Below are positions 25,896 to 27,437 of a stretch of DNA of 64,000 nt, in pieces. The stretch lies in contig NZ_CP091740.1 of assembly GCF_022014595.1 (NCBI RefSeq), positions 186,001 to 250,000 of the forward strand, written 5' to 3'. The position numbers and the translations under genes are program-made. Source of the DNA: Solitalea lacus. Lineage in GTDB: Bacteria > Bacteroidota > Bacteroidia > Sphingobacteriales > Sphingobacteriaceae. A model generated the notes under the pieces. That model did no database searches, was not told where the DNA came from, and worked only from the letters and a program-made list of their open reading frames with translations. Within the stretch, counting starts at the first letter, position 1; every line of letters starts with the position of its first letter.

Positions 25896-26025
25896 TTCTC
25901 TAAAAACATGCTAAAGCACGCTAATGCAAAGATGTACAAAATATAGTTTGGATTTAAAATGGAGTGATTGAATTGTCCAAAAAATAATTTCCTACCTTTC
26001 CTATCGACTTAATGATTTTTATTTA

Positions 26026-26056
26026 TTTACCGAAAATAAAATTATTACTATTTTTG
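26026..26056 (+). promoter_or_regulatory. Promoter of metK
   Basis: TTTA at 26026-26029, a 19-base spacer and TATTTTTG at 26049-26056 match the Bacteroidota sigma-A promoter (TTTG-N19-TAnnTTTG) with one mismatch. The predicted transcript starts near 26062, just before the aptamer-like sequence. This is the best promoter match I found in the window. Confidence 0.7.
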
Positions 26057-26065
26057 CGGCAATTA

Positions 26066-26120
26066 ATGTGGACTGATTTGATTGCTTGCAACCACAAAAA
26101 AAAATGCTAAAACATATTTC
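26066..26120 (+). promoter_or_regulatory. SAM-II-like riboswitch aptamer in the metK leader
   Basis: The order of conserved blocks follows the SAM-II (metA motif) aptamer. P1 is GTGG (26068-26071) pairing with CCAC (26092-26095). The first loop holds TGATTTG (26074-26080) and GCTTGCA (26084-26090). A ten-base A-rich linker leads to GCTAAAAC (26106-26113), which can form the pseudoknot with GCTTGC: C89-G106, G88-C107, U-A pairs and G84-C113, with one C-A mismatch. These blocks include the uridines known to contact SAM in the family. Position fits: it lies right after a promoter and before metK, the SAM-making enzyme. The aptamer ends about 65 bases before the ATG, with no terminator or covered RBS in sight, so the switching mechanism is unclear. 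Confidence 0.72.
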
Positions 26121-26186
26121 CGCATTTTCTCCGCAACAATCAGCAACCAGTTTTCAAATTTATCACAGTAGATTTATAGGAAGTAT

Positions 26187-27437
26187 ATGGCTTATTTATT
26201 CACTTCGGAGTCGGTATCAGAAGGACATCCGGATAAAATTGCAGATCAGATTTCAGATGCGCTCATAGATAATTTCTTGGCTTTTGACCCGGATTCAAAA
26301 GTTGCCTGTGAAACATTGGTAACAACCGGACAAGTTGTGTTGGCTGGTGAAGTAAAATCAAAAACTTACCTGGATGTTCAACAAATTACGCGTGATGTAA
26401 TTCGTAAAATTGGTTATACCAAAAGTGAATACATGTTTGAAGCTAATTCTTGTGGTGTTTTGTCGGCAATTCATGAGCAATCAAGCGATATAAATCAAGG
26501 TGTAGAAAGAACCAACCCTGAAGACCAAGGAGCAGGTGATCAAGGAATGATGTTTGGCTATGCAACTAACGAAACTGATAACTACATGCCACTAGCCCTT
26601 GATCTTGCTCACCAACTGTTAATTGAGCTTGCAGCGCTTCGCAGAGAAAATAAAGAGATTGCTTATTTGCGTCCTGACGCCAAATCACAAGTAACTATCG
26701 AGTATTCTGATGATCACAAGCCGGTGCGTATTGATGCAATTGTAGTTTCAACGCAGCATGATGAGTTTGATTCAGAAGCTAACATGGCAGAAAAGATCAA
26801 AAACGACATCATCAACATTCTAATTCCTCGAGTTAAGGCAAAACAAAAGTCTGAGATTCAAGCTTTATTTAACGATATTAACTACCATATTAACCCTACC
26901 GGTAAATTTGTTATTGGTGGACCACATGGTGATACCGGCTTAACCGGTCGCAAAATTATTGTAGATACTTACGGAGGAAAAGGAGCTCATGGAGGCGGCG
27001 CGTTTTCTGGTAAAGATCCATCAAAAGTGGACCGTTCAGCCGCTTACGCAACCCGTCATATAGCCAAAAACTTAGTAGCATCAGGAGTTTGTAGCGAAGC
27101 ATTGGTTCAGGTATCATATGCAATTGGTGTTGCTAAACCAATGGGTTTATATGTAAACACATACGGCTCTTCAAAGGTTAATCTTACTGATGGTGAAATT
27201 GCCAATAAGCTAAGTGAGCTATTTGATATGCGTCCTTATTTCATTGAGTCTCGCTTGAAATTAAGAAACCCTATTTACCAGGAAACAGCAGCTTACGGAC
27301 ATATGGGCCGCAAAAATGAAATTGTTTCAAAATCATTTTCTCTGCCTGATGGTAAGACAATTACCAAAGATGTGGAACTGTTCACTTGGGAGAAACTTGA
27401 TTATGTAGATAAAATCAAAGCCGCATTCGGTTTATAA
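26187..27437 (+). CDS. metK: S-adenosylmethionine synthetase
   Basis: MetK makes SAM from methionine and ATP, releasing phosphate and pyrophosphate. It has 416 residues. The ATP/methionine-binding start [19 protein letters not shown], the signature [12 protein letters not shown] (115-126) and the phosphate-binding [19 protein letters not shown] are all intact. It is a cytoplasmic tetramer in homologues. The ATG is preceded by TAGGAAG. The gene has a promoter, an aptamer-like leader and a strong terminator, so it is a single-gene unit probably controlled by SAM level. Confidence 0.98.

Follow-up and report, generated by a model that had tools for sequence, protein, structure and literature searches.

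A SAM-II (RF01726) aptamer before metK in Solitalea and a leader predicted to pair with it across genera

Introduction

How might a SAM-II riboswitch control a gene whose start codon lies well beyond the aptamer, in a leader with no evident terminator? The question is raised by the metK leader of Solitalea lacus. A sequence-only reading of the window, by which we mean the whole 64-kb stretch of DNA analysed here, had proposed a SAM-II-like riboswitch at this place and had suggested that its output stage may differ from those of known SAM-II switches. SAM-II RNAs of the RF00521 class, that of the metX crystal structure, are built from a P1 stem plus a pseudoknot. Those described are mostly associated with terminators and in some cases with occlusion of the Shine-Dalgarno sequence, according to the available parts of PMC9373788, PMC2258182 and PMC6061858; neither arrangement was seen at the metK leader of the window. 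Here we ask what the aptamer is, how widely it is linked to metK, and what the leader that follows it is predicted to do.

Results

The metK leader contains a SAM-II aptamer

When the whole window was searched with covariance models, the RF01726 ("SAM-II long loops") model aligned from position 1 to 60 with 26062-26120 of the forward strand, scoring 69.3 bits (gathering score 44; E 2.7e-11; Table 1). This was the sole Rfam match above its gathering score in the 64 kb and the only RF01726 match in the Solitalea genome, and it confirms, at the level of sequence, that the metK leader holds a genuine SAM-II aptamer of the long-loop type. The proposal of the sequence-only reading therefore stands, and the covariance search by which it was to be checked was decided by RF01726 and not by the alphaproteobacterial model RF00521 (SAM_alpha): the two share the order of conserved blocks and the combination of P1 and pseudoknot, but RF00521 scored 16.2 bits, below its cut-off of 36. 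SAM-I (RF00162) gave no match above its cut-off in the metK leader. The conserved blocks that had been picked out by eye lie where they were described, namely GTGG at 26068-26071, GATTTG at 26075-26080, CTTGCAA at 26085-26091, CCAC at 26092-26095 and an A-run at 26097-26104, followed by GCTAAA at 26106-26111, and the identical aptamer string is also found on contigs of Solitalea agri and S. longa. Since RF01726 is already listed for Bacteroidetes (Weinberg et al. 2010, PMC2864571, Table 1), finding SAM-II in this phylum is by itself no novelty; the window element shares with the listed family its full-length covariance match, phylum and cis-regulatory position, and its aptamer is no different.

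Table 1. Coordinates of the features of the metK leader within the window
Feature	Position	Strand	Basis
-7 promoter box TATTTTTG	26049-26056	+	sequence; same box class in leaders of 198/207 relatives
SAM-II (long loop, RF01726) aptamer	26062-26120	+	cmscan, 69.3 bits against gathering score 44
P1 5′ strand, UGUGG	26067-26071	+	pairs with 26092-26096 in MFE of aptamer alone; inner pairs in relatives
Loop L1: GAUUUG, pseudoknot 5′ strand (26083-26084), CUUGCAA	26075-26091	+	sequence, model match, 207 leaders
P1 3′ strand, CCACA	26092-26096	+	MFE of aptamer alone; pairing across 207 leaders
A-rich linker, GCUAAA core (26106-26111), pseudoknot 3′ strand (26113-26114)	26097-26114	+	sequence, model match, 207 leaders
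Post-aptamer leader (candidate expression platform), imperfect reverse complement of aptamer	26121-26186	+	window folds; group tests
Predicted helix C: GCAUUUU with AAAAUGC 26101-26107 (linker and core)	26122-26128	+	pair probabilities 0.80-1.00
Predicted helix B: with 26078-26089 (L1 and pseudoknot strand; C26085 bulged)	26133-26143	+	ten pairs, 26079-26089/26133-26142, at 0.91-0.94; outermost pair in MFE
Predicted helix A: CAGUUU with GGACUG 26070-26075 (includes P1 5′ strand bases)	26148-26153	+	MFE structure
metK, methionine adenosyltransferase (SAM synthetase)	26187-27437	+	TIGR01034, 516.7 bits, cut-off 309.4; ORF

Comparison with relatives, which the sequence-only reading had put forward as a further check, upholds the assignment. 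The landmark pattern of the aptamer fits 207 of 210 metK leaders; the other three (L234, L236 and L274), in which the aptamer can be seen by eye, are omitted from all counts over 207 leaders. The four inner pairs of P1 are formed in 828 of 828 cells, and one of them covaries, being U-A in 141 leaders and A-U in 66, with the other three invariant. The first pair of the P2 pseudoknot can form in 166 leaders, the second in 154 (as UA and GC types), the third in 126 and the fourth in only 68; when the first three pairs were slid out of register, the counts lay between 38 and 134. In the window, only G26084-C26113 and U26083-A26114 are standard P2 pairs; U-U and A-A face each other next, which makes the pseudoknot short, and the C-A mismatch that had been read into it does not occur in this register. 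We infer that the aptamer at 26062-26120 binds SAM.

The sequence TATTTTTG, which we take to be a -7 box of the Bacteroidota type, precedes the aptamer, where a good promoter had been suspected. In 198 of the 207 leaders, a box of the form TAnnTTTG (with TTCG also allowed) lies no more than 45 nt upstream of P1, against 9.3 expected from shuffles, and its position in the window implies that transcription starts near 26062, at the 5′ end of the aptamer. A leader peptide was considered and rejected: a 14-codon reading frame (26066-26110) opens with an ATG at 26066 and has its stop at the GCTAA core, but that ATG is present in only 28 of 207 leaders, with 6 of the 28 frames ending at the core, and the frame is therefore not conserved.

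RF01726 is linked to metK

At E ≤ 0.001, 293 of the 300 genomes sampled from the order carry RF01726 (198 above the cut-off), as do 189 of 201 from the family (152 above) and 63 of 395 from the phylum (57 above), 62 of these 63 belonging to the class of the window; sets of more than 40 genomes were searched with stricter filters, at which weak matches are lost. All 210 loci fetched, drawn from ranked lists rather than at random and leaving out one weak match (G351, 31.9 bits), lie within 330 nt upstream of metK on the same strand, three of them as judged by eye. In 15 metK loci (of 30 fetched) from genomes without RF01726, an Rfam search found nothing upstream of metK on the same strand; the matches elsewhere were SAM-I on the opposite strand in L211 and two microRNA matches at chance level in L203. 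By eye, several of the RF01726-free leaders are short, with a promoter of the TTTG type near the ATG.

Some individual loci depart from the general picture. In G016, from the family of the window (f1, genus g16; locus L199, one of the 15 without a match), the metK promoter box appears to be kept and the riboswitch leader to be missing, while its congeners have the leader; this is possibly a natural deletion experiment. A Crocinitomicaceae MAG (PAZE01000031.1; L304), which is named to another family, carries an aptamer pattern of the Solitalea type before metK with 81.7% identity, and transfer, convergence or a misbinned contig are possible sources. Two RF01726 matches per genome were found in G779, G803 and G828, the second match in G828 being weak (30.7 bits); these assemblies are fragmented, with about 3% contamination, so that a mixture of strains is possible. 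A scan of viral contigs for the SAM-II pattern found nothing.

SAM-I and SAM-II lie before different genes

Besides the metK aptamer, the Solitalea genome contains four SAM-I riboswitches (72.7-81.2 bits), and four SAM-I matches and one SAM-II match are found in each of all four Solitalea genomes. The genes that follow the SAM-I elements are hom (homoserine dehydrogenase), metH, a metZ-like gene (O-succinylhomoserine sulfhydrylase-like) and a metX-like gene, names that reflect the best NCBIfam families, with the metZ-like and metX-like products scoring slightly below the cut-offs of their nearest models and metH cut by the end of the locus. Across 63 SAM-I loci of about 3 kb each, 60 contain a homologue of hom, metH, the metZ-like or the metX-like gene, and metK occurs in none. 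By a hand count from the match lists, SAM-I is also present in 57 of the 63 SAM-II genomes of the phylum sample, those lacking it being G351, G424, G432, G540, G544 and G558.

SAM-II precedes metK in two relatives with small genomes, G005 (L013) and G008 (L112; 76% complete), that have no SAM-I match, and here the metK switch may have outlasted a SAM-I regulon. On contig C111 of G304, a SAM-I element (118716-118829, reverse strand) and a SAM-II element (119508-119565, forward strand) lie about 0.7 kb apart on opposite strands.

The leader downstream of the aptamer is its imperfect reverse complement

Complementarity of the leaders to their aptamers was first apparent by eye. In the folds described here, all computed with the pseudoknot and SAM left out, the window aptamer alone forms P1 in its minimum free energy (MFE) structure; the full leader is predicted to form helices A to C, with a P1 probability of 0. 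As the fold was extended stepwise, P1 dropped out of the MFE structure once the 3′ end reached 26124, and helices B and C stood at 26142. Helix C appears in the MFE structure of three of the four Solitalea leaders (the window, L003 and L016) and not in that of L002, where the folds of L002, L003 and L016 began at a fixed distance before TTGC rather than at a mapped start. The overall stability of the window leader is ordinary compared with dinucleotide shuffles (z -0.65; 53 of 200 shuffles fold as well).

Ensemble folds of leaders from 43 genera, with up to three leaders per genus, extended this picture, bearing in mind that genera within one family are not independent in these counts. Native leaders are predicted to pair with the whole aptamer more than their dinucleotide shuffles do (0.42 versus 0.27; higher in 41 of 43 genera), and the same holds for pairing with L1 (0.49 versus 0.20; 35 of 43) and with the core (0.46 versus 0.30; 36 of 43), while retention of P1 is lower (0.08 versus 0.25; 40 of 43). 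Reversed leaders and leaders taken from other genera pair with the whole aptamer at 0.25 and 0.32, with the native leader higher in 39 and 37 of 43 genera, respectively. Whole-aptamer pairing exceeds that of shuffles in each of five families, and a run with mononucleotide shuffles (up to two leaders per genus) agreed; in the single leader from family f12, pairing with the core was below that of shuffles (0.25 versus 0.57). Both sequence and predicted pairing mark the post-aptamer leader as an imperfect reverse complement of the aptamer across genera.

When 9-mers were scanned along the aptamer, downstream complements were most strongly in excess for the 9-mer that covers the conserved GATTGC (35 of 43 genera; mean z -1.44). 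Its complement GCAATC occurs in leaders at a genus mean of 0.255, about 40-fold above the 0.006 of shuffled leaders, with the same-sense control at 0 and the reversed control at or near zero; the exact hexamer is found in only 16 of 43 genera and in 25 of 139 leaders of the GATTGC type. Its exact counterpart GCAAGC was found in none of 11 leaders of the GCTTGC type, which include the window.

Within one genus, an anti-core hairpin could be aligned across 20 of 50 leaders, made up of 18 of the 19 chosen by pattern (L125 omitted) together with L123 and L250 added by eye. Pairing was found in 93.7% of cells, against 20-54% in slid controls, and the covariation score was reached by none of 500 shuffles. 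One pair is GC in 9 leaders, UA in 8, GU in 1 and unpaired in 2; the count of pairs with both partners changed (two) was reached by 209 of 500 shuffles, and the signal lies mainly in one pair of one genus. By eye, three of the other 30 leaders (L125, L234 and L236) have the same type of hairpin and 27 have another, which seems to oppose the linker.

No terminator is found in the leader, which is rich in C

With metK starting at 26187, the aptamer ends 66 bases before the ATG, close to the distance of about 65 bases first noted, and the early impression that no terminator follows and that the start is not obviously covered was borne out by the searches and folds. A search for intrinsic terminators, defined by a G+C hairpin with a T run after it, found none in 25900-26400, with a mean of 0.4 in shuffles, and the SAM-free hairpin is unlikely to act as one because its stems are A/U-rich. 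Folded alone, leaders are no more structured than shuffles (z 0.13). Predicted leader accessibility is higher in the locked state, with the aptamer held, in 41 of 43 genera (up to two leaders per genus), partly by construction because the aptamer is omitted from that fold.

Post-aptamer leaders contain 19.5% C and 9.9% G, with C exceeding G in 43 of 43 genera. A milder bias is present in controls: C exceeds G in 15 of 15 metK leaders without SAM-II (0.197 versus 0.137) and in 47 of 60 leaders of SAM-I-controlled genes (0.241 versus 0.177), and among 21 leaders of genes in the window, that of metK itself included, C exceeds G in 11 (0.146 versus 0.131). The SAM-II-free metK leaders and the SAM-I-controlled ones weaken the composition as evidence specific to Rho, and because such controls share it, the bias argues only weakly for a Rho step. 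Rho is encoded in the genome (646.5 bits, cut-off 509.45).

Discussion

The metK leaders examined here combine an RF01726 aptamer, always placed before metK among the loci fetched, with a downstream stretch that resembles the aptamer's reverse complement. Equal predicted accessibility of the start region, a leader with no excess of structure, the lack of a terminator, the abundance of C and the presence of a rho gene lead us to propose an OFF switch whose bound state would be unstructured. The transcript would begin at or near the aptamer, which would fold first, as P1 and the pseudoknot, into a form able to bind SAM. If SAM is absent, the segment 26120-26153 would refold the whole aptamer into one long hairpin of helices A, B and C; if SAM binds in time, the aptamer would hold, 26120-26153 would be left free, and the leader up to the ATG would remain unstructured, C-rich and G-poor. 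This SAM-bound state would be the OFF state, in which the freed leader may load Rho and bring about premature termination, the output that we favour. We consider it probable that the metK leader is a SAM-II feedback OFF switch of this design, with a SAM-free leader that hairpins the aptamer and a SAM-bound leader that is unstructured, a judgement that leaves the Rho step aside. That the output stage may differ from those of known SAM-II switches, as was first suspected, is supported by the absence of a recognisable terminator, the unchanged start region and the pairing of leader with aptamer above shuffles in 41 of 43 genera.

Complementarity between leader and aptamer could also be incidental, owed to base composition or common ancestry, with no switching fold behind it. 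The ordinary overall stability of the window leader would suit this account, as would a duplex-energy test in which a genus's own leader was better than leaders of other genera in 22 and 25 of 43 genera, with no clear separation. We nevertheless regard it as improbable, given the weaker whole-aptamer pairing of shuffled, reversed and other-genus leaders (exceeded by native leaders in 41, 39 and 37 of 43 genera), the roughly 40-fold excess of GCAATC over shuffled leaders and the covarying anti-core helix of one genus. The direction of the switch might likewise be the opposite, with the SAM-free hairpin as the repressed form and SAM binding freeing the leader for ribosomes; the leader alone is indeed no more structured than shuffles, and the SAM-free hairpin is the chief structure predicted for it. 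Such an ON switch would mean positive feedback on SAM synthesis, and helices A to C do not reach into the last 33 nt ahead of the ATG (26154-26186); we regard it as very improbable.

Given an OFF switch, Rho loading on the freed leader followed by premature termination appears to be the likeliest single output, tentative as that assignment is; mRNA decay and a translational effect rank next. A translational output acting at the start region or Shine-Dalgarno sequence would have precedents, since the Shine-Dalgarno sequence is the described target of metX-type SAM-II and SAM-V (in available parts of PMC9373788 and PMC6061858) and the SAM-II aptamer of Sinorhizobium meliloti metA reportedly acts on a start some distance away (PMC9373788, same limitation). 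It seems unlikely here, where the predicted accessibility of the region from -20 to +15 does not change between the free and locked states (0.56 versus 0.55, means over 43 genera with up to two leaders each; less accessible when locked in 13 genera, more in 9), which rules against occlusion of the start codon, and where the end of GCTAAA lies 54-169 nt from the ATG (median 76 in 150 leaders; 75 in the window). An effect on mRNA stability, in which the SAM-free hairpin would shield the 5′ end and an RNase would cut the freed leader, fits the predicted contrast between a long 5′ hairpin in the free state and a single-stranded U/C-rich leader in the bound state, and SAM-dependent changes in stability are reported for S. 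meliloti SAM-II mRNAs in the accessible part of PMC9373788. There, however, high SAM stabilised the mRNAs, which is the opposite sign, and we hold this output to be doubtful to a similar degree.

Several known systems bear on the proposed switch. In the E. coli ribB (FMN) riboswitch, a stretch of the leader is exposed to Rho in a ligand-dependent manner, and SAM-VI elements precede metK in other groups. The former, named among terminating loci in the portion of PMC12121620 consulted, follows the same logic of exposure to Rho as we propose, with a different aptamer and species and with the action of Rho in Solitalea being conjectural. Elements of the SAM-Chlorobi and SAM/SAH classes likewise precede metK in other groups (PMC2864571, in part), as does the SMK (SAM-III) element according to a title cited there. 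All four classes share the metK leader position with the Solitalea aptamer but are different RNA families, and in the window no family except RF01726 scored above its cut-off. Neither the reverse-complement leader nor the division between SAM-I and SAM-II was found in the main-text passages of PMC2864571 consulted; within the sources available in whole or part, a literature search found no description of this output stage or of that division, parts of which may stand in Additional File 1 of the same paper, and no experimental work on SAM-II switches of Bacteroidota.

A broader picture may tentatively be drawn for the metK leaders of the window's family and related families of Bacteroidota. These elements would have an output stage of their own, a fast-drifting reverse-complement leader that hairpins the sensor when SAM is absent and is single-stranded for Rho or an RNase when SAM is bound, so that unstructured means OFF; SAM-I would guard methionine synthesis and SAM-II alone SAM synthesis, as two sensors with different set points. 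With both classes present in 57 of the 63 SAM-II genomes sampled, one cell would hold two unrelated classes of SAM-sensing RNA, divided by pathway step. An anti-aptamer leader that is conserved and yet drifting offers a concrete and testable route by which SAM-II may control a gene far from its start codon, with neither a terminator nor occlusion of the Shine-Dalgarno sequence.
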